From Veillonellales bacterium (GTDB taxonomy: Bacteria > Bacillota > Negativicutes > JAAYSF01), in NCBI GenBank assembly GCA_039680175.1, contig JBDKTO010000074.1, positions 62,001-126,000 on the forward strand: 64,000 bases of DNA, in the 5' to 3' direction. A program made the position numbers and the translations under genes. The notes beneath the pieces were generated by a model. The model did not search any database, was not told the origin of the DNA, and saw only the letters and a program-made list of their open reading frames with translations. Shown piece after piece: positions 39,709-57,514 of the stretch. How positions within the stretch are numbered: position 1 is the stretch's first letter; every line of letters starts with the position of its first letter.

Positions 39709-40996
39709 GGAGCAATGGGACAATATATGCAATCAGAATAATTGCTGCGCCCTGACCGGGGCGGCTGCTTTCTTTGCCGGTATTCCCGGCGCTTTTATCG
39801 TCGCCAACGGTCCTCTTTGGTGCTATTTTTACGCTCTGCGGTTTTTGGAAAAATCCTGTCCCGACATGAGCCGTCGCTTTTTTTGTTCTCAGCCGGATAA
39901 TAACGCAGTCGTTTACGGTACGGAAGAGTGTCTGCTGGCGATTTTGCAAAAAATCAAGCAAAATTTTCAACCGTCGGTTTTGCTGATTGAAAACAGCTGT
40001 TCCATTGGTTTGATCGGCGACGATCTTGCCGGCATTGCCCAGCAGGCCGGTATGAATTGTCCGGTCGTCTGCATGGACAGCGGCGGGCTGAAAGGCGGTT
40101 TCTGGGAAGGCTACCGGGCGGCCGCCAAGGCTTATTTTGCTGCGGTGCCCCTGAAGCGGCGGGAAGTGGTGCAGCCCCGGACGGTCAATTTATTAGGTTG
40201 TACTGTCGGTTATTACAATGCCGCCAATGATCTGCGGGAGCTGAAGCGGATGCTGAATCTGGCCGGTTATCAGATCACAGCCTGTCCGGGGGCGGGAAGC
40301 ACTGCCGCAGAAATTGACAGCATGAATCAGGCGGAACTGAATCTGGTAATCCACAGCGAACTGGGGTGTGAACTGGCCAAGCAGCTGCAGCAGGAATACG
40401 GCGTACCCTACTTGTCTCTGCTGCCGCCTTACGGGCTGGAAGGTTCCCTGAACTGGCTCAGGACTTTGGGGGAACGGATGTGGATGGAGAACAAGAGCAT
40501 GCAGGCTGTTGAGCAGGAGGCAGGAGATTTGGAACAGCGGTTTCGCGCCGCTGTTTTGGACATGCAGCTGACGTGGGGCGAACCCTGGTTTGAAAATACG
40601 CTGATCGCCGGGCCGTCTTCCGTTGCCCTGGGCATAGCCCGGGCCTTGCGCCGGGAATGGATGGACACGGGATCGCTGACGATTGTGCTTCAAGATGGGG
40701 AAGCGGCGGATTCGCTGCCGGAGAGGCCGGATATTGTGCTGAACGGACAAAAAGACGGCAAGGCGATTCAAAAGCAGCTAGCGGAACTGTCTTCCGGCCT
40801 TTTACTGGGCAGCAGCCAAGAAAAGGCTTTAGTGCAGCAGCAGGGAATTCCAAATGTGGTTTGTCAGAATATCGCCTTGCCGGTGTACGACGAAGTGATT
40901 CTTAGCGACCGGCCTTTTATGGGGCTGCGGGGAGCCTGCCATATGCTCGAAAGACTGTGGAATCAATATATTGACTTTTGCCAGCGAAGCAGGTAA
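39701..40996 (+). CDS. Nitrogenase-like component 1 protein, K-type
   Basis: This 431-residue protein is a second component 1 paralogue. ICNQNNCCALTGAAAFFAGI near the N-terminus and LIENSCSIGLIGDDLAG carry the candidate cluster Cys. LGCTVGYYNAANDLRELKRML resembles the second Rossmann domain of the family. ATG 39701 follows GGGGAGG and overlaps the D-like stop by 8 bases. Together with the two genes before it, it forms an H-D-K reductase set. The N-terminus is richer in Cys than in NifK. A 69-base gap precedes the TIM-barrel gene of the same operon. Confidence 0.85.
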   Translation: MGKEQWDNICNQNNCCALTGAAAFFAGIPGAFIVANGPLWCYFYALRFLEKSCPDMSRRFFCSQPDNNAVVYGTEECLLAILQKIKQNFQPSVLLIENSCSIGLIGDDLAGIAQQAGMNCPVVCMDSGGLKGGFWEGYRAAAKAYFAAVPLKRREVVQPRTVNLLGCTVGYYNAANDLRELKRMLNLAGYQITACPGAGSTAAEIDSMNQAELNLVIHSELGCELAKQLQQEYGVPYLSLLPPYGLEGSLNWLRTLGERMWMENKSMQAVEQEAGDLEQRFRAAVLDMQLTWGEPWFENTLIAGPSSVALGIARALRREWMDTGSLTIVLQDGEAADSLPERPDIVLNGQKDGKAIQKQLAELSSGLLLGSSQEKALVQQQGIPNVVCQNIALPVYDEVILSDRPFMGLRGACHMLERLWNQYIDFCQRSR

Positions 40997-41065
40997 AGCG
41001 AACGGATTTAATGAATTATGACAGTGAATCTTCCTCAAATATGACGGGAAAGGAATTGTACTACC

Positions 41066-42034
41066 ATGCTGCAGCTTGTGAATTTATCCAATTATAAAAG
41101 TGATATGGACCTGATCCATAACCGGGCGGAATGCTTGCAGGTTTTTTTGCAGTGCCGCCGCTTGGACGGGATCGAAATGATGTTTTGTCAGCCGTGGGAT
41201 CCCCTTATTCACAGACAAGAATGGATTCATGGCGTACATCTTAAATTTTGGCCCTGCTGGCTGGATTTTTGGCGGGGAAATCAGGCGGAATTGCTTAGTC
41301 AGATGGGCAGCCGGGAAAATATTGCAGCCTGCTATGGCGGACTGGACCGGGAAGCCTGGCTGGAAATATACCGGGAAAATATTCGCATGGCGAACCGGGC
41401 CGGGGCGGAATACCTGGTCTTTCATGTCAGCCATGTCCGTTCTTTAGAAACATTTACCGGGCATTTCAGCGCTGCCGACCGGGAAGTGATTGAAGGGACG
41501 ATTGAAGTTGTCAATGAACTGGCCGGTGAAATACCGGATGAGACGGCGCTGCTGTTTGAAAATTTATGGTGGCCGGGACTGACGCTGCAGGATAAGAAAC
41601 TGACTGCTCTGCTGCTGGAGAGCATAAAGCATCCTAATGTGGGGATTATGCTGGATACCGGTCATTTAATGAATACTAATCCTGATTTGCGAACGGAAGA
41701 AGAAGGGGTAGACTATATTCTGCATACGCTGGAGCGGCTGGGAGAATACAGCCGGTATATCCGGGGAATCCACCTGCACCAGTCCTTATCAGGTCAATAT
41801 GTCGTCAGCAGCAAAAAGCAAAGGGAGCACGATGCTACGATGACCGGCGTTATGCAGCATGTATTAAAAATTGACGAACATCTGCCGTTTACCACTCCGT
41901 CGGTATGGCGGATTCTGGAGTATGTGCAGCCGGATTATCTGGTGCATGAATTTTTGCAGCTATCCATGGATGCCTGGACGGAAAAAGTTTCCCGGCAGCA
42001 GCGGGCGCTGGGACTGGGGAGGACCTTTGAGTGA
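41066..42034 (+). CDS. Xylose isomerase-like TIM-barrel protein
   Basis: This 322-residue protein has the AP-endonuclease-2/sugar phosphate isomerase fold. LVFHVSHVRS, LLFENLWWPG, GIMLDTGHLMN and IRGIHLHQS hold Glu, Asp and His residues placed as metal ligands in this family. The reaction cannot be named. The family includes isomerases, epimerases, endonucleases and enzymes acting on cyclic cofactors. It starts at ATG 41066, and its stop overlaps the btuF3 start (GTGA). The corrinoid operon context hints at a role on a corrinoid-derived sugar, lower ligand or side chain (inference). Confidence 0.78.
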   Translation: MLQLVNLSNYKSDMDLIHNRAECLQVFLQCRRLDGIEMMFCQPWDPLIHRQEWIHGVHLKFWPCWLDFWRGNQAELLSQMGSRENIAACYGGLDREAWLEIYRENIRMANRAGAEYLVFHVSHVRSLETFTGHFSAADREVIEGTIEVVNELAGEIPDETALLFENLWWPGLTLQDKKLTALLLESIKHPNVGIMLDTGHLMNTNPDLRTEEEGVDYILHTLERLGEYSRYIRGIHLHQSLSGQYVVSSKKQREHDATMTGVMQHVLKIDEHLPFTTPSVWRILEYVQPDYLVHEFLQLSMDAWTEKVSRQQRALGLGRTFE

Positions 42035-42999
42035 AGCGGTTTAATTTGCTGTCTCTTTTTATGGCACTCGTGTTGGTATTGTTTATCAGCGGCTGCGGCA
42101 ATAAGGCACCTAACGGACAGCCGGAAGCACCGCCAGCGGGCTATGAGGTACAGGACAGCACCGGGGCAGTCGTCAAGCTGTCCGGTCAGCCCCGGCGAAT
42201 CGTCTCGCTTACCCTGGGAACCGATGAAATTTTGCTGGGACTGGTGCCGGTGGATCGGATTGCGGCGTTAACCTATCTGTCCGATGATCCCGGGATTTGT
42301 TCGGCGGCAGAGCAGGCTAACCAGGTGCCGGTAAAAATCAGAGACAGCGCTGAATCAGTAATTTCCCTGCAGCCTGATCTGGTGATTATAGCCGACTGGA
42401 TGAATCCGGCTCTGGCCAAAAGCGTACGGGACGCCGGAATTCCGGTATATGTATACAAGACGCCGAATACTGTAGCGGAAGTTAAACAGTCGGTGCTGGA
42501 AATTTCTCGCTTGGTGGGCGAAGAGGCCAAAGGCAGGCAGATCGTGGCGGGCATGGAGGAAGAACTGGAACGGGTGGATGCTGTAGTCAAAACCATACCC
42601 TCGGATCAGCGGCAGACGCTGGTTGCTCTGTCCTTTATGGGGGCGTTCGGCAGCAAGGACAGCTTGTTTGACGACATGTGCCGCTATGCCGGTGTAGTAA
42701 ACGGGGCGGCGGCAGTCGGCCTGACAAAAGAGAATACCTTATCGAAAGAGCAGATCGTAGGAATTAATCCGGATGTGCTGCTGCTGCCCGATTGGGATTA
42801 TGACGGCAAACGAAACATTGAACAATATCGGCTGCAGGTGCAAAATGACCCGGCGCTGCAGACGGTTAAAGCAATTCGGCACCAGCGGCTCGTTCAGGTA
42901 CCGGACCGCTATTTATACAGTGTGTCTCAGTCTATCGTTTATGGAGTGCGGGATATTGCCAAAGCGGCTTATCCTCAGTATTTCGGCGGGGAGATGTAA
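42031..42999 (+). CDS. btuF: BtuF-like corrinoid-binding lipoprotein 3
   Basis: The product is 322 residues, with lipobox FISGC and Cys22. It shares the paralogues' plan: GYEVQDSTGAVVKLSG, PRRIVSLTLGTDEILLG, PDLVIIADWMNP and DDMCRYAGVVNGAAAVGL, but it is the most divergent of the three. GTG 42031 follows GGGGAGGA and overlaps the stop of the TIM-barrel gene. It sits directly upstream of cbiZ2 and the ECF genes, so it may pass corrinoid to that transporter. Lipoprotein-assisted ECF uptake would be unusual. Confidence 0.88.
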   Translation: MKRFNLLSLFMALVLVLFISGCGNKAPNGQPEAPPAGYEVQDSTGAVVKLSGQPRRIVSLTLGTDEILLGLVPVDRIAALTYLSDDPGICSAAEQANQVPVKIRDSAESVISLQPDLVIIADWMNPALAKSVRDAGIPVYVYKTPNTVAEVKQSVLEISRLVGEEAKGRQIVAGMEEELERVDAVVKTIPSDQRQTLVALSFMGAFGSKDSLFDDMCRYAGVVNGAAAVGLTKENTLSKEQIVGINPDVLLLPDWDYDGKRNIEQYRLQVQNDPALQTVKAIRHQRLVQVPDRYLYSVSQSIVYGVRDIAKAAYPQYFGGEM

Positions 43000-43004
43000 A
43001 ATAG

Positions 43005-44096
43005 ATGAAACTTTGTACATTGTCGACCGGGGATACGGTTTACCGCTATTATAAAAATATTGTGATGCTGTTTGAGCAGCCGCGGAAGGTTTTGAGCACC
43101 TCTGTCTATAACGGGGGCTACCGGGAGGACTTGACGGCAGTATTCAATCACGACTGCAATCCGGGAGCGGGAATGGCCTGCAAGATGCGGGCGGATACGT
43201 ATGTGGAAGAAATGCGGCTGATCGCCGGAGAAGCGGGGCTGGAGCCGGCTACAGCTTCCGGCATGGGAACTGCCGCTTCCATGGAAAATGTGTCGATTCA
43301 GTCGCAGCAATATGAAACACTTACCGTAACAGCCATCGTAACCGGCGGGATTGAAGTAAACGGCGGCCGCGCCGGCGATCCGGCAGCGTATTTCAAGCCG
43401 GTGGAAAAAAGCCGGCTGGATAAACCGGGAACGATCAACATCATGCTGGTGATCGACGCCGATATGCCCCCTGGAACGCTGGCCCGGGCTCTCGTTACCT
43501 GTACCGAAGCGAAAACAGCGGCTATTCAGGAGCTAATGGTCGGCAGCAATTATTCCAACGGACTGGCGACGGGATCAGGCACCGATCAAACTATTGTTGT
43601 GGCCAATCCGGTGTCTCCTCTATACCTGGAGAGTGCCGGCAAGCATTCTAAACTGGGCGAGCTCATCGGCCGCACAGTCAAAACAGCCGTCAAGGAAGCG
43701 CTGCTGCGGCAGACCGGACTGTCACCCGCCCAGCAGCACAGCGTCCTCAAACGCTTGAAACGGTTTGGCGTAAAGGAAGAGACACTGTGGCAGGAATACA
43801 GCGCCAATCATGAAGTATCCGTACTGAAACCCCGCTTTTTGGACTGTCTGTATCAGCTGGACCGTGACCCGCAGATGGTGACTTATACCTCGCTCTATGT
43901 TCATCTGCTGGATCAGTTTTTATGGGAACTGCTGTCCGGTGCAGAAGTTTTGCAGGCCGGCAATGAACTATTGCAGCTGGCTGCCGGGAAATATGACGTG
44001 ACGCCGCCCGTCATTGCGGCGGAAGAATTAAAAGCGTTCCTCCGGGCATGGGTCAGCCTGATGGAAAAAATTGCAGCTTTGGAATTATCCGCCTGA
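43005..44096 (+). CDS. cbiZ: Cytoplasmic CbiZ-type adenosylcobinamide amidohydrolase 2
   Basis: This 363-residue protein has the CbiZ core (STSVYNGGYREDLTAVFNHD, ALVTCTEAKTAAIQEL, YSNGLATGSGTDQT) and a C-terminal extension like cbiZ1. There is no signal peptide: it begins directly with the domain (MKLCTLSTGDTVYRYY), so it should act in the cytoplasm on imported corrinoids, making cobyric acid for lower-ligand exchange. ATG 43005 lies 5 bases after the btuF3 stop, with GGGGAGATG upstream. Having one exported and one internal CbiZ in the same regulon is noteworthy. Confidence 0.92.
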   Translation: MKLCTLSTGDTVYRYYKNIVMLFEQPRKVLSTSVYNGGYREDLTAVFNHDCNPGAGMACKMRADTYVEEMRLIAGEAGLEPATASGMGTAASMENVSIQSQQYETLTVTAIVTGGIEVNGGRAGDPAAYFKPVEKSRLDKPGTINIMLVIDADMPPGTLARALVTCTEAKTAAIQELMVGSNYSNGLATGSGTDQTIVVANPVSPLYLESAGKHSKLGELIGRTVKTAVKEALLRQTGLSPAQQHSVLKRLKRFGVKEETLWQEYSANHEVSVLKPRFLDCLYQLDRDPQMVTYTSLYVHLLDQFLWELLSGAEVLQAGNELLQLAAGKYDVTPPVIAAEELKAFLRAWVSLMEKIAALELSA

Positions 44097-44139
44097 TGAA
44101 AAAAATTCAGGCAGAGCGGTTGAACTTTGCGGAGGGACG

Positions 44140-45801
44140 GTGAGACACTGTTTGCTGTATCGTATTTTATTGCTTGTTTTTACAGCCATTCTGATTAGTC
44201 CGGTTACTCCCTCCATTGGCTTTGCCGGCGATAATATCCGGGTTCAGTGCGACTTCCCCTACTATCTGGGGAAGGCAAAGGATGTCGTCCTGCCCGGAGA
44301 GACGGTGCAGGCTTTGGTTGTGGTGGAAAACTGCGGCAGGGAGGATCGGACAGTACCGGTGGAACTGGAACTGCCCGGTTGTTTTGCGCCTTTTGGGACA
44401 TATGAAGGCTGGCAGGTCGTTTCCGGGGCGGATAAAACGGTTTTTTCCAACTCTGTCGATTTAAGCGGCGGCTACAGCCAATGGTTTGATCTGCTGCGGT
44501 TCACGGTTTCGCCGGACGCACCGCCGGGAAGTTATCAAGTCCGTCTGACAGTGAACGGTCAGCCCCGGGATTTTACCGTCAGCATCGGGTCAGGCGGTTC
44601 CGGAACAGAGCGTTTTTTGTCCGTCAGCGGCATTGTTTTGCCCCTGGACAAAGACGGCAGAAAAGACGACCGGTTGAATGACAATACGCTGGTACTGCGG
44701 GACCGGCAGCTGGACTACTACAAAAATGTTCTTCAGGGGAAAGGCGCCGCCAATCTGGAAATCGAAGCCATCCATCCTGTTTCCCATATGGGAATCGATT
44801 TTGATAATCCCGGCGGGCAGCAGAAGCTGGTTACGATTACCGCCCGGCTGCTGGATAAGACGACCCGTCAGCCGGTGGAAGGCTTGTTCACGCCGGGTAC
44901 GACCGGCGAGGACAAGGATGCCGGGTCCATCGGCGGTCATAAGGATTCCCTGGAAGTGTTTACCGCCCTGACCGGGGAGGCAAAGCAGCGGATTCTGCTG
45001 CCGGTCTATGCCGATGAACAGTATGCGGCCGGCGGAACGTATTGGCTGCAGGTTGTTGTGGACGACGGAGTAAACCGGCCGCTGGTTGAAACCGTACCGC
45101 TGACGATTGTGAAGAAAAACCGGCAGGCCATGCTGACGACTTGTTCGGCGGCAGCGGCCGTACTGGTCGCGTTGCTGTTCGGCCTGGGGTATCTGCGCCG
45201 GCTGCTGGCAAAATTGAAAACCCGCTGGCTGGTTACTGCGGCCTTATTCGGTGCCGCCGTCTTTGCTATGGTGAATGTGCCTTCCACCCTGCTCAATGAT
45301 TTCTTTCATGTGCTGCTGGGACCCTTTGGTTTTTTGATTACCGGCTTGTTCAGCAGCGTGTTTCTCTACATGCTGGTGGTATCCCTGGTGGTGTTGATCC
45401 CCCGTCCGGGTATTATTTCCCTGATGACTTTGGTTCGCATGCTGCTGGGAATGCTGGTGTTCGGCAATATTTCACCGATCGGGGTTTTATCCTACGGAGT
45501 ACACGCCCTGACTCTGGAGCTATTATTTTATTTTTGCGGCGTTTACGGCAAAATCGGTGCCCATGGCGGACAAATCAACTTTCCGGCGCGGCAGGTGCTG
45601 GCGATATCATTGCTGTGCGGGGTGGCCGATAGCATCGCTATTTATGTGGGACTCCAGTCCATGGCTTTCCTTTACCGGATGTATTACGCCGACTGGTACA
45701 TTTATCTGGCAATGCTGATCAACGGGCTGCTGTATACGGCTGTCGGCGCCGCCTGCGGTCTGCAGCTCGGCTGCAGGCTGTCCAGAGTGGGAGGCGACTG
45801 A
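44140..45801 (+). CDS. Probable ECF transporter S component with exported N-terminal domain
   Basis: The 553-residue protein has two parts. Residues 1-27 or so form a signal. Residues 28 to about 325 are an exported beta-sandwich region (PGETVQALVVVEN, APPGSYQVRLTVNG). The last ~220 residues contain about six membrane helices, as in ECF substrate-binding (S) components. It is followed after 2 bases by the dual ATPase and then EcfT, which supports the assignment. The frame extends upstream to 44071, but GTG 44140 follows GGAGGG and gives the signal peptide. ECF S proteins are usually about 200 residues, so the exported domain is unusual and may capture corrinoid. The substrate is inferred from context only. 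Confidence 0.7.
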   Translation: MRHCLLYRILLLVFTAILISPVTPSIGFAGDNIRVQCDFPYYLGKAKDVVLPGETVQALVVVENCGREDRTVPVELELPGCFAPFGTYEGWQVVSGADKTVFSNSVDLSGGYSQWFDLLRFTVSPDAPPGSYQVRLTVNGQPRDFTVSIGSGGSGTERFLSVSGIVLPLDKDGRKDDRLNDNTLVLRDRQLDYYKNVLQGKGAANLEIEAIHPVSHMGIDFDNPGGQQKLVTITARLLDKTTRQPVEGLFTPGTTGEDKDAGSIGGHKDSLEVFTALTGEAKQRILLPVYADEQYAAGGTYWLQVVVDDGVNRPLVETVPLTIVKKNRQAMLTTCSAAAAVLVALLFGLGYLRRLLAKLKTRWLVTAALFGAAVFAMVNVPSTLLNDFFHVLLGPFGFLITGLFSSVFLYMLVVSLVVLIPRPGIISLMTLVRMLLGMLVFGNISPIGVLSYGVHALTLELLFYFCGVYGKIGAHGGQINFPARQVLAISLLCGVADSIAIYVGLQSMAFLYRMYYADWYIYLAMLINGLLYTAVGAACGLQLGCRLSRVGGD

Positions 45802-48373: not shown

Positions 48374-49798
48374 GTGAAAAAGGCAGTTACCATACTACTT
48401 TTTGCTCTATTTTTAATCACGCTGACAGGACTGGCCCGGTACATCTTTTTGCATCAAACGGGCATTCCGGCAATGTCGGCGGTAAAAAACGATGCCAGCC
48501 TGGCTGGAATGTACCGGAAAACAGCGGATATTGATCTGGGAAAAGTAGAAGTCTACAACTATCAGCGCATGGGCTTTACCCACGGCTTTCTCCAGTTTTC
48601 CCCGAACAGCCGGTATCTGGCTTTGGGTACGGAGCAGGGCGATATTCTATTTATGAATGTCGACGGGAAAACCCTTTGGAAGAGGAGTATCGGACTGGGG
48701 AAAATTTCGGCCCTGACCTTTTCCCCGGACGGAAGCAAACTGCTGGTCGGCGATACCAGCCAGCAGGGCAGTTTGATTTGCTTTGACACCGCCACAGGCA
48801 ATGAACTGTGGCGTTATGCCAGTGCATCGGAACTGGAGCCGGATATCAGGCAGAAGATTTATCCCGGCATTGTCTATATTACAACTGACGAACAGGGATT
48901 CATCTATGCAGTGGGACAGCGCTATAAAAAGAATAGCGACGGCAGCAACGAATACCGGGATCGCATTTATAAGCTGGATGAAAACAACGGCAATAAAGTG
49001 GCTATGTTTCCCCCCGATCACGACATGGATGCCTGGGTCAGCTGGGTCGGTGTGGATCGGCAGGGCCGCCGTTTGGTATTCGGCACCGGCAATTGGGATA
49101 CGGGGAAAACCTGCCGCTACGATGATAATGTGTACTGTCTTGACGACAAGCTGAACCAGCCGCTGTGGAGCGTTTTTATTGATCCGGTTACTCCTTATCA
49201 GAGGACGACCATGCGCAGCAGCCCGGATATTTCCGCCGACGGCAGCTATATCGCCGGTATCGCCAATGACGGCCGCTGTTTTTTATATGACGGCGGCGGC
49301 CGTGAACTCTGGCGGCGGACGCTAAGCCAGCCCCGCCAAATTGGCGGGGTGTATATCAATGCCACCGGAATGTTTGTGCGCATCGTCGGCGGCTATGTGG
49401 TGCTGACTACCGGCAATACCTACAATCGGGCCAACTGGCAGCTGCCGACACCTGTCGATCATCCGGCCCGGAACACTATATTCGTTTTCGATTTGCAGGG
49501 AAACCTGATGTATAAGCATTCTACCGGCGGGATGGTGGAGGAAATGTCCATCAATGACGGCAGGATCGTCCTGGCCGTGGGCCGGAATGTCAGGACGAAG
49601 GACCCTTCCGTCCACGGCATCCAGATCCTTTCACTGGAAGACGGCCGACTGCTTGACAGCATGCCCACCGCCGGTCCCTGCATCGGCGAAGCCTCTTCCG
49701 CCGACGGACGCTATGTGGCCGGCATAGAGGCGCCGATTCAGCTGGATGACGGCCAGATCATCGGCAGCTATCGGTTGTATATCTGGGAGAAAAAATAG
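48374..49798 (+). CDS. Membrane-anchored beta-propeller (PQQ/WD-like) protein
   Basis: The 474-residue protein starts with a signal-anchor (KKAVTILLFALFLITLTGLA), followed by repeats typical of quinoprotein-like propellers, for example FSPNSRYLALGTEQGDILFM, FSPDGSKLLVGDTSQQGSL and DISADGSYIAGIANDG. No PQQ-binding or catalytic residues are evident. It probably displays a propeller on the outer face of the cytoplasmic membrane as a scaffold or binding protein. It sits between ecfT and a ferredoxin in the RS5 operon, with 10- and 16-base gaps. It has no recognised link to B12, so its association with the transporter is novel. Confidence 0.7.
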   Translation: MKKAVTILLFALFLITLTGLARYIFLHQTGIPAMSAVKNDASLAGMYRKTADIDLGKVEVYNYQRMGFTHGFLQFSPNSRYLALGTEQGDILFMNVDGKTLWKRSIGLGKISALTFSPDGSKLLVGDTSQQGSLICFDTATGNELWRYASASELEPDIRQKIYPGIVYITTDEQGFIYAVGQRYKKNSDGSNEYRDRIYKLDENNGNKVAMFPPDHDMDAWVSWVGVDRQGRRLVFGTGNWDTGKTCRYDDNVYCLDDKLNQPLWSVFIDPVTPYQRTTMRSSPDISADGSYIAGIANDGRCFLYDGGGRELWRRTLSQPRQIGGVYINATGMFVRIVGGYVVLTTGNTYNRANWQLPTPVDHPARNTIFVFDLQGNLMYKHSTGGMVEEMSINDGRIVLAVGRNVRTKDPSVHGIQILSLEDGRLLDSMPTAGPCIGEASSADGRYVAGIEAPIQLDDGQIIGSYRLYIWEKK

Positions 49799-50283: not shown

Positions 50284-50337
50284 TTAATCCTTCAGATATA
50301 GATGTACCGCTAAAAAGTGAAAAATTTCATATAGTGA

Positions 50338-50535
50338 TGCAGGTGCCCTTTGGGGCTTAATAGGGAAGCCGGTTGAAGACCGGCGCGGTCCCGCCACTGT
50401 AATGACGAGCGATCCTCAGAATTATGCCACTGGAACGAAAGTTTTGGGAAGGCTGGGGAAAGCGATGAATCAAAGCCAGGAGAACTGCCTGCAGGACAAT
50501 CGCCGCTTGACCTACGAACGATGGGGAGGAAGATT
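50338..50535 (+). promoter_or_regulatory. Cobalamin riboswitch RS6 (LuxR-type regulator)
   Basis: AGGTGCCCTTTGGGGCTTAA, AGGGAAGCCGGTTGAAGACC, GCCACTGTAATGACGAGC, CCACTGGAACGAAAGTTTTGG, GCCAGGAGAACTGCC and GATGGGGAGG are in order. A terminator follows at 50582. Confidence 0.93.
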
Positions 50536-50667: not shown

Positions 50668-51204
50668 ATGGAGCAAGACGCTTTTTGGGTGCTGCACGAT
50701 TCCCCCCAGGGAATTTGTGTTTTAAACTGGGAATTCAAAAAAGTATATGAAAATAAAACAGCGAAAGCCCTTTTTTCCCGGCAATGTCCCGGGTTATACC
50801 GGCAGCTTAAGAAAATCTGCCAGAAAGCCGGTGAGACGGTCCCCGCGGGCAGCAATCCTTTTCTTCACCACAGCGGCGTACTGCGTTATCGCTGCGGCGC
50901 CGTGGCTTTTAGCTGCCTGTTTTTGGGACAGGGAACTCAGACGAATGTTTATATCCTGTTTGACTATCTGCCCAAAGCTCTTCTGCCGACGGCTGACAAT
51001 ACCGCTGATATTACAATTACGCCGCGGGAAAAAGAAATTGTTCAGGCTGTGGCATTGGGCAAAACCAACAAAGAAATCAGCCGGCTATTAGGCATTGGCC
51101 TGGAAACGGTAAAATCCCATATCCGCAATTTATTTGCCAAACTGAAAGTTAAATCCCGGACGGAACTGGTTGGCAAGGTGCTGAAAAATCCTTCCGATTC
51201 TTGA
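50668..51204 (+). CDS. LuxR-type transcription regulator with PAS-like N-terminus
   Basis: This 178-residue protein has a short PAS-like N-terminal part (SPQGICVLNWEFKKVYENKT) and a LuxR helix-turn-helix at about residues 112-165 (TPREKEIVQAVALGKTNKEI, VKSHIRNLFAKLKV). No receiver domain or Asp acceptor site is present. ATG 50668 follows GGAGGAG. Its own message is headed by RS6, so it should be made when B12 is scarce. Identical composite elements at 50221 and 51224 lie upstream of its own leader and of the next gene's leader, suggesting it regulates itself and the outer-membrane fusion gene (inference). The N-terminal ligand is unknown. Confidence 0.85.
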   Translation: MEQDAFWVLHDSPQGICVLNWEFKKVYENKTAKALFSRQCPGLYRQLKKICQKAGETVPAGSNPFLHHSGVLRYRCGAVAFSCLFLGQGTQTNVYILFDYLPKALLPTADNTADITITPREKEIVQAVALGKTNKEISRLLGIGLETVKSHIRNLFAKLKVKSRTELVGKVLKNPSDS

Positions 51205-51287: not shown

Positions 51288-51364
51288 TAAAAAAATAGGA
51301 TTTTGCTTGTCGATGAGTTTAGTTTTTAAACCCGGACAAGCTTGTAAAACTTCATACGAAATCA

Positions 51365-51515
51365 GGTATCCGGCATCCGGTCGGATGTAAAAGGGAAGTC
51401 CGGTGAAAGTCCGGCGCTGTCTCGCAACTGTAAAGGAGAGCCATGTTTCTGCAAGCCTCTTACCAAGGAGAAATATGGCGATGATCCCAAGTCAGGGTAC
51501 TGCCTGGTTTCTGGT
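51365..51515 (+). promoter_or_regulatory. Cobalamin riboswitch RS7, divergent form
   Basis: AGGTATCC, AAAAGGGAAGTCCGGTGAAA, GTCCGGCGCTGTCTCGCAAC followed by TGTAAAGGAGAGCC, and AAGTCAGGGTACTGCC are aptamer landmarks. The B12 box is GCAACTG instead of GCCACTG, and the AGGAGAACTGCC closing segment of RS1-RS6 is changed. A long 3' arm with GTTTCTGGTGTCTCATCCGG and CCGGATGAAACACTCAC hairpin strands follows to about 51570. It precedes the fusion receptor gene. Confidence 0.88.
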
Positions 51516-51644
51516 GTCTCATCCGGCGGGGTGTGAAATGCAGCGCCGGATGAAACACTCACATCCGTACAGCCTGCGATGCACAGGTCTGGGACTAAGA
51601 ACACTTGCAGGCAGAGGATAGTTCTGTGTACATGAGACTGCAGG

Positions 51645-51667
51645 CTTGTTAAGGCGAGCTTTTTTCT
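51645..51667 (+). terminator. RS7 leader terminator 1 (weak stem)
   Basis: GCTTG pairs with CGAGC (one wobble), followed by TTTTTT at 51660-51665. Confidence 0.5.
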
Positions 51668-51731
51668 CCTTATAACAGCCAGAGAGTGGTTCTTGACCCG
51701 GCATTGGCAGCAGGCGTCTTTAGAAAAAGGT

Positions 51732-51775
51732 AAAGCGTCGATTGTTCCGCCGGGCGGAAGGATCGGCGCTTTTTG
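51732..51775 (+). terminator. RS7 leader terminator 2
   Basis: AAAGCGTCGAT (51732-51742) pairs with ATCGGCGCTTT (51762-51772), and the inner TTCCGCC/GGCGGAA extends the stem. TTTTTG follows. Confidence 0.85.
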
Positions 51776-51970
51776 CTTGACCCGCAGGCAAGTGCCATGG
51801 ACTAGCCGCAACATATACTGTGTATTTTATCGGACAGCAAATACAATGACGGGGAGGTAGAGAAAGCCTGGGCAATAATGCTGCCGGTTTGACGGACAAG
51901 AAACAAAAGCAGCCAAGCTGGCATGAAAAATGCTGCGAATCGATGCGAATAGAAAGGATGCTGCCATAAA

Positions 51971-54900
51971 GTGAGACATATTAAGCAAAAGAAAACCCGG
52001 ATCAAAACAGCTGGAAAAGTATTATCAGCAGCAATGCTCATGTCAATGAGCTGTATTTTTTGCACAGACTGGTCGGGAATGGCGTATGCCGCTGAAAATC
52101 CGCCTTCGACTATCAATCAAGGGGTTGCGATGGAAGCTACGGGGGTGGAGCATTACACCCGCGATTACTATGACTATAGTCAGCACACATCTTATGCTTA
52201 CGGCGACGAAAATACCTTTTTGGGTTATCAGAACCGGGATTCGGTAAAAAATACGGTGACTCCCATATTGCGGTCCATTAATTTATTTGATATTTCCGAC
52301 GGCAATTTTTTGTATTACCGGCATGAAGACGACATGGATGAAAATTACAGCGCTGCTTTGGGAAACAGAACGTACCGGAAGATTTTCTGGGGCGACAACG
52401 CCGCCAACATCAGGACCTACCCGGACAGAAACGCTACGGCGGCGACCAATGCCTTAGTTGGCAGGTTTACCGACGCTAAGGGAAATTACGTGTATAAAGT
52501 TTTGGGCACAGTCAATTCGGCGGATGACGCGATCGAAAGCTCCGCGTTTAAAATGTATGTCAATCAAACCGTATTTTCCAGTCTGGATCTGCAGGAAAAG
52601 CTGTATGCGATGATCGGCAGCGGCAACAAGCAGGCTTTGCGCAATTTTATTGACAAATACATTCCTCATTATTATCTTGTGACGCTTACCGATAACGAGT
52701 TAGCGGCTTACCAGAATCTAAAGATGGACGGCTCCTATTTTGCCGACAATTCTCTCTCCGTAACCCAATTGTTCATCGACAATAATGCCAGCCGCAATCT
52801 CCAGGAGATTACGGCGGATACAGAGTTCTGGTGGGGACAGGATATGCTGACGAAAGGGTCGGAGGACAAGACGACTCATACCTACGATTCGGTCAAGGTT
52901 GACAGCGGCGCCCGCTGGACGCCTTTAGACCGGACGGTTTCCATGGAAGGGCCTGATTTGCAGGGAACCTATGCATTTGCACAGGCTTGGGGAACCGGCA
53001 CGCAGGGAACCATGGAAGAAAAGGATATGAAGCTGCCGCCGGTACATGGTGCTGATGGCGATCTGTCGACCTCTTATGACGGCGTGATCAGTCCGATTCC
53101 GACCGGCAGCCAAACGGCCATTACCGTGAAAGACCTGACACTGGGCGATAACAGCACCGTCGATCTGAGCTATGCCAATACGGTTTTCGGACGTTTGGCC
53201 GGTACCTGGGATCCCGGCCAAAGCGGCACGTATCAGGGTTCGTATACGGATGCGGACGGGAAAGTGAAGCAGGTTTCCGTATCGGCGGGCCGGACACTGT
53301 TTGCGGATACCGCTGTTTTAGGCAAAGATGTCACCTTTCGGCTGGGAATTTATGGAGTAAACACTACAAATTCAGATTATCCTTCGGCGAGTCCTTACGA
53401 CAGCGTGTACCTTATGAATGCCAAGCAGGCCACGCCGGGGCAGACTGACACCGTTCATATCCAGCTGGGCTGGGTGCCGGGAATCGGCCAGAGCTTATAC
53501 GGCGCGGTGGCTTTCGCCAGCCCTTATACCACAACGTATACCAATTCCGGGGTCTGGCAAATGACGAATCCGAAACTTCTGGGAATTTATCAAGGCAGTG
53601 GCAATTTCACTGTCGTGGCCGACACCTCTTATGCCGACGGCATCGACAATATTTATCAAATTACGCCGGATATCGGGAGAATCGATAATTATTTTGCGAC
53701 AAAAGACAGTCAGCGCCTTTTTCTGCAGAATATCAATAACGCCTATATCGCCCAGCCGGATAAACAGATAGCCAAATATACGGTTGTTACCGCCATGCCG
53801 GACGGAACGCCGCTGCCTACCGATCAAGGCCAGCTGACGGAGGCGCAGAAACTGTACCTGATCAAATCAGGCGTCTTATACGGCGAGTGGCTGGGAAACA
53901 CAGGATCGGTTTGGTATCTGAAAGGCTATACCTATGTCAATACAGGCGAGATCGGGGAATCGGGAAAAGAGGCGGTCGATCAGGCGACGGCGATGCAGAA
54001 TCTTTGGCGGGAACAGTATACCAATATGTTCCGGCGCACAGAAGATCTTCACGCCCGGTACAGGCAGTCGGCAGACCGGACAACCCCGGCGCCGGCGGCG
54101 GAGATGGATGGCCGGGAAAATGTATGGGCTTCCGCCTGGCACGGGCGGTTTGAAAGTTCTTCGGATTACGGCCGATCGGTAAGCCAGAGCTATAATGGAC
54201 TGCAGGTAGGATATGATAAGCTGCTGAACAAGGAAATGTATGGCGGTAAGGTTTATACAGGATTATACGTCGCCAAGCTGGATTCGTCCGCCAGCACCGA
54301 GCACGGCAAAGGAGACCCGGAAGGAACTGCATTGGGAATATACGGCTCATGGGTAGGCGACAGCGGACGCTATTTTGATATGGGAATCACCGCGGCCCGG
54401 CTTGAGGATAAATACCATTTCACAGGACCACTGCAGAGTGGAACACTCGGAACCGTTAGCGGCGACTATAGTACCTGGGCCTACGGACTGGGTATGAAGT
54501 ACGGCAAAAGAAATGAGAAGGATGCGGCCTGGACGGATCCGCATGTGTCTATGTTTATCGGACATATGGACGACGCAGCTTACAAATTAGACAACGGACT
54601 TAAGATTGGCTCTCAAGGCTGGGATTCGGCTACAGGCAGCGCCGGTATCACGGTCGGGAAAAAACTGAATAGCAAAGGCCAGGTTTGGGCCGGCGCCGCC
54701 GTAAATCATGAATTTGCCGGCGGACAGAAAATACAGCAGAGCTTTGATAATACCGCAGGCTGGTCGAAAGATCTTCGCAATCCGGAGTACCGCTACACCG
54801 CTGAATGGTCTCAGCTGGCAGGCAGGACAGGAGGCGGCGACACCTGGTATGAACTTAGCGCGGGCGGCGATATACAACTGACGCATGACAGCCGCTTTCA

Positions 54901-57514
54901 TGCTGAGTACGCCCGCGATATCGGGAAGCGCGAGGGCAATAGCTGGAATCTTTCCGGCCGCTTGGATGTTGCCTGGGCAGGGTTCGGCAGCGGCAACGAT
55001 CAGAAAAAAGATCAGACCCGGAGCGTCATTGCACCGGCAAGATCAGAAAAAAATAAAACAACTTCTTTATCTGCGGTGAACAAGGCTAGCGCATCTGCGG
55101 CGGGAAAAAATACTGCGCCGATAAAAAATATTCAACTGCCCAGACTGGCGCCGGCGCCGCAAGAGCAAGCGGCACAACAGGCCGACACCGGTACTAGAGC
55201 GATAGGCAGTGACAGCGAAGCAGAACAGGCAGTAAGCGGCAATAAAAGTACGGCGATAACAGGGAGTCAAAGCGATTTACCGGCTTCGGCGGAAAGTGGA
55301 CAGACGCAGCAAAGCGCACCGGCAGATGTATCCTCCTCTGAAAACGATGCTGTTTCTTTTTCGCTGCCCGAAACGATAGTGGAGGCCCGGCGACTGGGCT
55401 GGGAACAGACTCTTTCTCCCGGTCAGGTTTCCGTTATCTACCCGAAGCAGTTTGAAGGGGAGCAAAAAGAGCTGCCGGAATTGCTGGATCGGATTCCGGG
55501 ACTTTTTATTGATCGGCAGAACGGCCAGGGCCATTATACTACGGCCCGGATCAGAGGGTCCCAGTCCACTCAGGTCGATGTTTACGTAGACGGCGTGAAG
55601 ATGAACCTTAACGGGGACGCAGCGGTCAACCTCTCGGCCATTCCGGCGGATAACATTGAGCGGATTGAAGTGTACCGCGGCTATGTGCCGGCGCGGTTTG
55701 CGGGAGCGCCGATCGGCGGTGTCATCAACATTGTCACCAAGAAACCGAACAGCGGACATGGCAATGTATTGATCGGAACAAGGTCTTTCGGCGGCTGGAA
55801 CAATCAATATGAATACAGCATGCCTCTGGGGAACGGAAGCCTGCTGGCGACATTTTCCCGGGAAGTTTGGGATGGAGATTATCCGGTGAAAGCCCCTGAT
55901 CCGGAGACGTGGAAAATCCATAAACAGCCGGTTTCCTACGAGCGAACGAGCAATGATCTTAACAACAGCAACGGCATGATCAAATGGCAGGATGACCATT
56001 GGATGCTGAAAACGGCCTGGAAAAATCTTCATGAGGGGCTGGCCACAAGTTTATCCACCGGAATCAACAGCACCTATAATTGGGACGGGTTCAAGCTGGG
56101 CTTTACCGATGCCTATCAGAACCTGAACTATCATGAATTCTATGTCGGCCGGCATGACGATTTCAACAAATTGATGGTGGACTGGCATATTGCCTATATG
56201 GACAGCAATAAGCATTATCGCAATACCGGCGCAATGAAAATGATCAATTGGCCGGTGTGGCCGCCCAACGACTGGGGAAACTGGGGTCATTATCAACCGA
56301 CGGAAGGAAGTTACATGCCCGGCCAGCTGTGGGGCGATTACCACTCGAAAAAGTGGAATGCCAATTTTACTTTTTCTTACAATTTGTGGGATACGCATTT
56401 GCTGGAGCTAAATACCGATATGAGTTGGGACGATATGAATGTCAATGCCAGCGGCCAGGACGCCTCCCAGGAAAGGCTGGATTACAACTCCAGTACCGGC
56501 GGAACGCCGTGGCGTCAGCTCCTGCGGAATTATCACAATCGGGATTATCATGTGATCCTTCAGGATACAATGAAGCTGGATAATGCCGGCAGTTTGAAAC
56601 TGACATCGATCGGACGGGCCGATAAAGTGATCATGCAGGGGCTGGGTCCGGTCGGCGGTAACGATGACCGCTGGATGTATTCCAGCGGCACGGCGCTGCA
56701 GAAAAAGTTCAACGATAACTGGGATATAAAGACTTCCTGGGGAACATATCAGCGGCATCCGAATTTCTATGAACTGTTTGGCGACGGGGCGTCTATTTTC
56801 CAAAGCGGCTTTGTCGCCTATGAAGACGCCCAGGGATATAAGAACGGGACCTGGGAAACAGGAACGCAGTTTGATTTCGGCGTGGAACATTTAGGCAAGA
56901 TGGGCAGCGCCGATACCCAGACGATTCTTACCTGGTTCCAGCGAAAAGCGAATAACCAGCTTGTTTTGTGGGGCTGCCGGAGACCGGATGCCAACTGGAT
57001 GCTCTATATTCCCACCGGTCTGGTCGAGACCCACGGCATCGAACTGACCCATAACATGAAATGGAAGCGGGTAGGACTGTCGCTGGCCGGAACCTGGGAA
57101 ACGGCACGCGGCGGCGGCGGAAAATTCGGCGACGGAAATAATTTCTATGTCAGTGCCGGTTCCAAGTCTTTTGTGCCGGAATGGGTCTGGAGCGCACGGC
57201 TTGATTATACTTTCCCGGGAGACCGCCTGAGCATTTTCAGCGAATATCACTACCGCGGTTCGGAAATTGTGGCCGGGGAAGGTTCGGCCGACATGAAGCA
57301 GAGTTATGCCATCGCCAAAGATTCTTACGCTACCGTGGATTTGGGAATGAAATACAGGTTTAAACCGGGAATCATGCTGACGGCGGGAGTTAACGACATT
57401 GCCAACAGGGGCTATAATGTGTGGGCCCACTATGTGAATTATTCGCAGACAGCTGCCTTGGATTATCCGCTGATGGGCCGCAATTATTATGTCACGATGC
57501 AATATAGCTTCTGA
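51971..57514 (+). CDS. Autotransporter barrel fused to a TonB-dependent receptor
   Basis: This is one continuous frame of 1847 residues. A signal peptide covers residues 1 to about 42 (ends AYAA/ENPP). Residues 45 to about 700 are a passenger-like region. About 715-1005 match an autotransporter barrel (VWASAWHGRFESSSDYGRSV, GLQVGYDK, AEYARDIGKREGNSWNLSG). About 1006-1125 are an Ala/Ser/Gln-rich linker. From about 1130, PETIVEARR is TonB-box-like, followed by a receptor plug (LPELLDRIPGLFIDRQNGQG, IERIEVYRGYVPARFAGAPI, GGVINIVTKK) and a barrel ending in MQYSF. Both barrels should lie in the outer membrane with the linker in the periplasm, which is topologically consistent. It starts at GTG 51971. 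RS7 implies corrinoid control and cargo. Confidence 0.88.
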   Translation: MRHIKQKKTRIKTAGKVLSAAMLMSMSCIFCTDWSGMAYAAENPPSTINQGVAMEATGVEHYTRDYYDYSQHTSYAYGDENTFLGYQNRDSVKNTVTPILRSINLFDISDGNFLYYRHEDDMDENYSAALGNRTYRKIFWGDNAANIRTYPDRNATAATNALVGRFTDAKGNYVYKVLGTVNSADDAIESSAFKMYVNQTVFSSLDLQEKLYAMIGSGNKQALRNFIDKYIPHYYLVTLTDNELAAYQNLKMDGSYFADNSLSVTQLFIDNNASRNLQEITADTEFWWGQDMLTKGSEDKTTHTYDSVKVDSGARWTPLDRTVSMEGPDLQGTYAFAQAWGTGTQGTMEEKDMKLPPVHGADGDLSTSYDGVISPIPTGSQTAITVKDLTLGDNSTVDLSYANTVFGRLAGTWDPGQSGTYQGSYTDADGKVKQVSVSAGRTLFADTAVLGKDVTFRLGIYGVNTTNSDYPSASPYDSVYLMNAKQATPGQTDTVHIQLGWVPGIGQSLYGAVAFASPYTTTYTNSGVWQMTNPKLLGIYQGSGNFTVVADTSYADGIDNIYQITPDIGRIDNYFATKDSQRLFLQNINNAYIAQPDKQIAKYTVVTAMPDGTPLPTDQGQLTEAQKLYLIKSGVLYGEWLGNTGSVWYLKGYTYVNTGEIGESGKEAVDQATAMQNLWREQYTNMFRRTEDLHARYRQSADRTTPAPAAEMDGRENVWASAWHGRFESSSDYGRSVSQSYNGLQVGYDKLLNKEMYGGKVYTGLYVAKLDSSASTEHGKGDPEGTALGIYGSWVGDSGRYFDMGITAARLEDKYHFTGPLQSGTLGTVSGDYSTWAYGLGMKYGKRNEKDAAWTDPHVSMFIGHMDDAAYKLDNGLKIGSQGWDSATGSAGITVGKKLNSKGQVWAGAAVNHEFAGGQKIQQSFDNTAGWSKDLRNPEYRYTAEWSQLAGRTGGGDTWYELSAGGDIQLTHDSRFHAEYARDIGKREGNSWNLSGRLDVAWAGFGSGNDQKKDQTRSVIAPARSEKNKTTSLSAVNKASASAAGKNTAPIKNIQLPRLAPAPQEQAAQQADTGTRAIGSDSEAEQAVSGNKSTAITGSQSDLPASAESGQTQQSAPADVSSSENDAVSFSLPETIVEARRLGWEQTLSPGQVSVIYPKQFEGEQKELPELLDRIPGLFIDRQNGQGHYTTARIRGSQSTQVDVYVDGVKMNLNGDAAVNLSAIPADNIERIEVYRGYVPARFAGAPIGGVINIVTKKPNSGHGNVLIGTRSFGGWNNQYEYSMPLGNGSLLATFSREVWDGDYPVKAPDPETWKIHKQPVSYERTSNDLNNSNGMIKWQDDHWMLKTAWKNLHEGLATSLSTGINSTYNWDGFKLGFTDAYQNLNYHEFYVGRHDDFNKLMVDWHIAYMDSNKHYRNTGAMKMINWPVWPPNDWGNWGHYQPTEGSYMPGQLWGDYHSKKWNANFTFSYNLWDTHLLELNTDMSWDDMNVNASGQDASQERLDYNSSTGGTPWRQLLRNYHNRDYHVILQDTMKLDNAGSLKLTSIGRADKVIMQGLGPVGGNDDRWMYSSGTALQKKFNDNWDIKTSWGTYQRHPNFYELFGDGASIFQSGFVAYEDAQGYKNGTWETGTQFDFGVEHLGKMGSADTQTILTWFQRKANNQLVLWGCRRPDANWMLYIPTGLVETHGIELTHNMKWKRVGLSLAGTWETARGGGGKFGDGNNFYVSAGSKSFVPEWVWSARLDYTFPGDRLSIFSEYHYRGSEIVAGEGSADMKQSYAIAKDSYATVDLGMKYRFKPGIMLTAGVNDIANRGYNVWAHYVNYSQTAALDYPLMGRNYYVTMQYSF

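Follow-up and report, generated by a model that had tools for sequence, protein, structure and literature searches.

Can a single polypeptide carry two successive outer-membrane β-barrels, i.e., a complete autotransporter (AT) followed by a complete TonB-dependent receptor (TBDR)? The question is raised by one gene in the window, which is the whole 64,000-nucleotide stretch of Veillonellales DNA analysed here. In the literature, the barrel of an AT is placed at the C-terminus and BAM is said to read a motif at that end (PMC3297439); a preliminary description of the locus had nonetheless placed an AT barrel in mid-protein, ahead of a linker, a TonB-box-like motif, a plug and a receptor barrel.

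Two predicted barrels in one uninterrupted frame

The gene starts with a GTG codon (position 51971), and its frame stays open for 1847 codons. Signal peptide, passenger, AT barrel, low-complexity linker, TonB box, plug and TBDR barrel follow one another in the order first described (Table 1), as both the sequence and Pfam searches with the window protein attest. These searches recognise the two halves well above their cut-offs: PF03797 (Autotransporter) at residues 718-980 (80.3 bits, cut-off 26), PF07715 (Plug) at residues 1149-1251 (67.6 bits, cut-off 23.9) and PF00593 (TBDR barrel) at residues 1362-1808 (71.8 bits, cut-off 27). That AT and TBDR barrels are encoded in one chain, the former preceding the latter, is thus confirmed at the level of predicted domains, and each half is a member of a known family.

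Table 1. Positions of the fused gene, its parts and its upstream elements in the window
Feature	Position	Strand	Basis
Second cobalamin riboswitch, ahead of the LuxR-type gene	50324..50506	+	Rfam RF00174, 120.8 bits
LuxR-type regulator, 178 aa, between both riboswitches	50668..51204	+	PF00196 GerE, 63 bits
Cobalamin riboswitch of the fused gene	51347..51521	+	Rfam RF00174, 69.3 bits (gathering score 31.5)
Terminator-like hairpin plus downstream T run; possible expression platform	51732..51774	+	sequence and RNA fold
Putative ribosome-binding site AAAGGA ahead of the GTG start	51953..51958	+	read from sequence
Fused AT-TBDR gene	51971..57514	+	1847 aa, one uninterrupted frame
Signal peptide, ~residues 1-41	51971..52093	+	sequence
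N-terminal alpha/beta passenger domain, long type, ~residues 60-280	52148..52810	+	home-made HMM BIGN
Conserved passenger core with W-x-P-x-D motif, ~residues 301-586	52871..53728	+	home-made HMM PASS
In-barrel helix and 12-stranded autotransporter barrel, ~residues 660-1002	53948..54976	+	PF03797; EspP match
Low-complexity linker, ~residues 1003-1131	54977..55363	+	pLDDT ~22; in frame in intact homologs
TonB box LPETIVEA, residues 1132-1139	55364..55387	+	conserved by alignment; outside any Pfam model
Plug domain, residues 1149-1251	55415..55723	+	PF07715
TBDR barrel with C-terminal Phe, ~residues 1256-1847	55736..57511	+	PF00593; Foldseek to BtuB

Structure prediction, which the preliminary description had proposed as a check, supports both folds along with the profiles. 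An AlphaFold model of residues 690-1847 contains two barrel regions, between which pLDDT drops to ~22; the details of this model are uncertain at a mean pLDDT of 62.8. In a separate model of residues 41-1045, in which model positions 620-962 correspond to residues ~660-1002 of the window protein, the AT barrel superimposes on EspP (8bo2) with a Z of 33.0 (rmsd 2.3, 294 residues), and the match takes in the in-barrel helix. Since a sequence profile alignment reaches the last residue of EspP, the AT barrel is complete and the chain simply continues beyond it, by a further 845 residues, such that this barrel does not lie at the polypeptide C-terminus. For the TBDR half, Foldseek matches numerous TBDRs, including Escherichia coli BtuB (TM ~0.8, normalised by BtuB) and the Bacteroides proteins BtuB1 and BtuB3. 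At the TonB box, alignment reveals a VEA-R-P-x-W-E motif that is conserved in both fused and solo relatives.

Both termini of an AT barrel are periplasmic, as is the N-terminus of a TBDR; a periplasmic linker between the two is therefore topologically sound. The linker is present as first described, with a length of ~129 rather than 120 residues. It is rich in Ala, Pro, Ser and Thr, and in homolog alignments its core stretch spans ~53-99 residues (67-128 in another cut). Its sequence is hardly conserved and its length is variable, yet it remains in frame in all intact homologs, up to the TonB-box motif, and the hidden stop codon that had been considered was found in none of the ~30. Codon-position counts over the linker gave no sign of strong selection on its sequence, only of retention of the frame.

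Such a linker could be proteolysed so as to separate both barrels, in which case cleavage after assembly would yield two independent outer-membrane proteins from one gene. The predicted disorder of the linker, its status as the fastest-evolving part of the protein and its accessibility to periplasmic proteases are compatible with this scenario, as is the existence of a fission state (adjacent separate genes) in other lineages; however, across ~30 genes of broad taxonomic range the in-frame linker was never replaced by a stop and a new start, and no second signal peptide follows the AT barrel, with no hydrophobic stretch of that kind seen in the aligned linkers. We thus regard cleavage into two proteins as improbable.

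A family of fused genes in Negativicutes

A class-wide search with an AT-barrel profile, followed by architecture checks on the fetched loci, yielded, by our tally, 31 AT-TBDR genes, their 22 carriers among the 380 Negativicutes genomes belonging to 12 families; the idea of a fusion limited to one genome was accordingly rejected. Carriers include Pectinatus cerevisiiphilus, Sporomusa ovata, S. acidovorans, Anaerospora hongkongensis and Pelosinus species. Three of the 31 genes are imperfect: one from Pelosinus propionicus has a frameshift in the plug, one from a metagenome-assembled genome is frameshifted within its AT barrel and the third is cut short by a contig end. The frame change in the plug of the second P. 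propionicus copy (L028, 1818-6220) reflects either decay or a sequencing error. All three Pfam domains (AT, plug and TBDR barrel) are present in 19/19 homologs scanned, and PF03797 in 29/29; in addition, PF13018 (ESPR, a type V signal extension) is found at the N-terminus of three homologs, and DUF3575 matches part of the AT barrel in some.

An error of assembly or sequencing that joins two genes might be suspected for a 4.08-Mb assembly in 121 contigs. Against this, the same genome contains a second fused gene (1464 aa) ~20 kb downstream of that in the window, ~30 occur in other genomes, linker length changes in frame and the closed plasmid pSPTER of Sporomusa termitida carries a fused gene as a single CDS (40432-45762), with an OmpH-like gene before it and a gene of the partner family described below after it. 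This explanation was consequently rejected for the family, and for the window gene we assign it next to no probability. Among plasmids, that of S. termitida alone covered the AT-TBDR junction, and a DNA-level search of plasmids for the fused gene returned no match. In a draw of 398 genomes from the phylum, which included few members of the class, strong AT-barrel matches were confined to Negativicutes.

Whereas ordinary AT barrels of the class mostly reach a stop codon at the end of the barrel profile, the fused ones read on. In the AT-barrel tree, fused genes form one clade (support 100/97), and the lone "solo" row within it is a copy truncated by a contig end. In the TBDR tree, solo TBDRs nest inside the fused group, and some of these solo proteins begin with a type V ESPR-like start; one fusion followed by loss of the AT part would fit these trees, but the root is poorly supported and would also accommodate other orders of events.

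Cobalamin riboswitches and gene neighbourhood

The preliminary description had also placed a cobalamin riboswitch ahead of the gene. This is borne out by an Rfam match 450 nt upstream (Table 1), and the intervening leader includes a terminator-like hairpin (predicted fold of 51521-51800, z = -3.75). The arrangement is general, with a same-strand cobalamin riboswitch upstream of 30/31 fused genes, often two to four in a row (28/30 loci in the main scan, two loci with missing upstream sequence, one of them included in that count and the other not, having been settled separately). The sole exception is a frameshifted tandem copy. Loci at which a single operon is preceded by 2-4 successive cobalamin riboswitches include L088, L078, L097 and L106. 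A counterpart of the LuxR-type regulator, 44% identical, lies comparably between cobalamin riboswitches in another genome (L030, 6606-7175).

Fifteen cobalamin riboswitches were found in the genome to which the window belongs, 14 of them on the contig of the window and seven in the window itself. On this contig, corrinoid genes form a very large cluster that includes several CobN genes and TBDRs. Cobalamin genes in the window encode CbiQ, an ABC ATPase, CbiZ (by Pfam) and CobN; a beta-propeller-like protein (48374-49798; PF13360, 43 bits) is encoded after CbiQ.

Among proteins of solved structure, those closest to the plug include BtuB and Cir. Of the curated families, TIGR01779 (TonB-B12) scores best, although its 92.1 bits are far below the cut-off of 599.7; two further TBDRs in the window, both of the ordinary kind, likewise miss this cut-off (197 and 200). 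Taken together, the riboswitches, the cobalamin neighbours and the closest relatives, both solved and curated, provide good support for a corrinoid role of the receptor half.

Many fused genes are preceded by a gene for an OmpH/Skp-like chaperone. Peptidases of the papain-like (C1) and subtilisin-like (S8) types, devoid of an evident signal peptide, recur near fused genes (e.g., L097, 8751-9653; L029, 14514-15494; L098, 19772-20671), though not beside every one, and none is encoded in the window. Directly after the window's fused gene is a giant AT frame of 2975 codons, which extends from 57638 to beyond 64000 (ending at 66562 on the joined sequence) and is without the partner domain described below.

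A partner family and giant autotransporters

A protein family of ~440 aa, here termed the partner, adjoins 25/31 fused genes on the same strand; it precedes fused genes of the short type and mostly follows those of the long type (e.g., L024, 10316-11701; L029, 13083-14384; L090, 7607-8857). Partner genes also occur beside solo TBDRs of the same TBDR family; the fused gene of the window has no adjacent one. Pfam searches with 13 partner members gave nothing above cut-off, and the best match to PDB profiles was a sub-threshold one to a YncE family protein (E 0.11), which along with our own reading of the sequences suggests that the fold is possibly a beta-propeller. The L090 member has a signal peptide, whereas none is evident in most partner proteins.

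In five genomes without the fusion at this locus, a riboswitch is followed by a solo TBDR of the related type and then directly by a giant AT of 2237-4723 codons, the N-terminal part of which, behind the signal peptide, belongs to the partner family. This was detected by cutting the giant frames into pieces and searching with the HMM filters off, whereby the partner domain was matched at E 9e-19 to 5e-36, compared to ~0.6 for shuffled pieces. Thus, two pairings exist: (i) AT and TBDR are fused with the partner separate, or (ii) AT and partner are fused with the TBDR separate. That the same three parts are fused in two different pairings is our best evidence that AT, TBDR and partner work together, and judging from these arrangements they look like components of one corrinoid-uptake system. 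As the partner would be displayed by an AT beside the same kind of receptor in other lineages, this also lends indirect support to a corrinoid role for the passenger.

The signal-less neighbours evoke a different function, in which the TBDR and AT together would secrete them, i.e., the partner and the C1/S8 peptidases, much as Oar is needed in Myxococcus for secretion of PopC, a subtilisin-like protease without a signal peptide (PMC6434023). Partner, C1 and S8 proteins without evident signal peptides are indeed encoded near many fused genes. Placement of the riboswitches, however, indicates corrinoid uptake, the peptidases are missing beside some fused genes and from the window, and the partner does possess a signal peptide when it occurs as an AT domain; we therefore consider such an export system very unlikely.

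The passenger

Passengers are of two types, a short one (~250 residues) and a long one with an extra N-terminal domain, to which the window protein and others belong. The HMM for this extra domain (BIGN) matches only some of the long-type homologs, and the model of the domain contains helices. In the conserved core, the W-x-P-x-D motif reads WRPMD in most homologs and WTPLD in the window protein, with the W and P invariant in 29 passengers; the model depicts the core, with middling confidence, as short strands in a helix-like stack. Pfam searches with the passengers of the window protein and 29 homologs detected only ESPR in some and no ligand-binding family. Structure searches with a passenger-containing model were dominated by matches to the AT barrel and so barely probed the passenger.

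It is conceivable, albeit at a probability we would put at about one chance in a few, that the dual-barrel protein imports corrinoids with a passenger that is only a shield, adhesin or spacer, fusion then serving only to provide equal amounts or co-localisation of both halves. The core resembles a small beta-helix-like AT passenger without a known binding domain, passengers vary considerably in size and sequence (24-36% identity) as surface-exposed parts do, and the extra N-terminal domain is missing from the short type. On the other hand, invariance of W-x-P in 29 passengers suggests a specific job, and co-inheritance of the passenger with a corrinoid-linked partner suggests one in uptake. 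From the first proposal of a corrinoid-binding passenger next to its receptor, the corrinoid role of the receptor is well supported; that the passenger, which has no recognised ligand-binding fold, would itself bind a corrinoid beside the receptor is what we infer.

Proposed function

We marginally favour a reading in which the protein is a BtuB-type, TonB-driven corrinoid importer placed behind a complete type Va AT, the passenger of which remains tethered and aids corrinoid capture. The single polypeptide would be exported by Sec, after which BAM would build the AT barrel, allowing the passenger to be carried to the cell surface, and would then build the TBDR barrel at the end of the flexible periplasmic linker. 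TonB would drive the plug via the TonB box. Remaining uncleaved, the passenger would be tethered near the receptor mouth, where it and the co-encoded partner would catch or hand over corrinoids in a manner similar to BtuG, with anchorage by a barrel instead of by lipid. Export, assembly, display and TonB-driven uptake are steps expected from the protein families involved. Whereas the architecture, its conservation, the riboswitches ahead of the gene and the neighbourhood can be read from sequence, a corrinoid substrate, an uncut chain, surface display in this organism and capture by the passenger are what we deduce. Partners without a signal peptide count against this importer, as they do not suit a surface role barring some unknown export route.

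Relation to known systems

Classical type Va autotransporters such as EspP, BrkA and Hbp share with the fused protein the signal peptide, passenger, in-barrel helix and 12-stranded barrel; their barrel is C-terminal, whereas here a whole TBDR comes after it. The N-N dyad of EspP, which we take to be its cleavage site, is not visible in the aligned stretch of the fused protein. With BtuB and other TonB-dependent transporters, the shared features are the TonB box, plug, 22-stranded-type barrel, C-terminal Phe and cobalamin riboswitch ahead, the difference being the AT that comes before them in one polypeptide. Five N-terminal architectures were distinguished in a Pfam-based survey of 34,893 such transporters, with no AT among the named domains (PMC6434023).

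The BtuB-BtuG pedal-bin complexes of Bacteroides provide a functional parallel to the importer proposed above, each combining a B12-type TBDR with a surface companion encoded adjacently under riboswitches (PMC10404256); for the fused protein, surface display of the companion would follow from its AT. BtuG is a lipoprotein, whereas a barrel within the same polypeptide would anchor this companion. No lipoprotein was seen by eye, and the partner matches the YncE profile only weakly, at the value given above.

Our literature search, mainly of non-subscription papers, found no earlier report of an AT-TBDR fusion, and the parts seen of a Veillonella outer-membrane proteome study (PMC5491611) mention none. 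With ~30 related genes of the same design behind vitamin-B12 RNA switches, these proteins would represent a genuine and apparently undescribed kind of nutrient receptor. More tentatively, and with somewhat less confidence than in the importer itself, they may define a new class in diderm Firmicutes, in which an AT presents a capture domain above a corrinoid transporter driven by TonB, in replacement of the Bacteroides lipoprotein lid, and in which BAM recognises an internal barrel-closing strand before proceeding to a second barrel. With a natural two-barrel chain, one can test directly whether BAM is able to close a barrel inside a polypeptide before building another; the same chain suggests how a TonB receptor could be equipped with a capture domain at the surface, no surface lipoprotein being required. 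Under current annotation the AT half of these genes is invisible: in RefSeq, the pSPTER gene (SPTER_RS24090 / WP_170233416.1) is named only "TonB-dependent receptor", with its AT half absent from the record.
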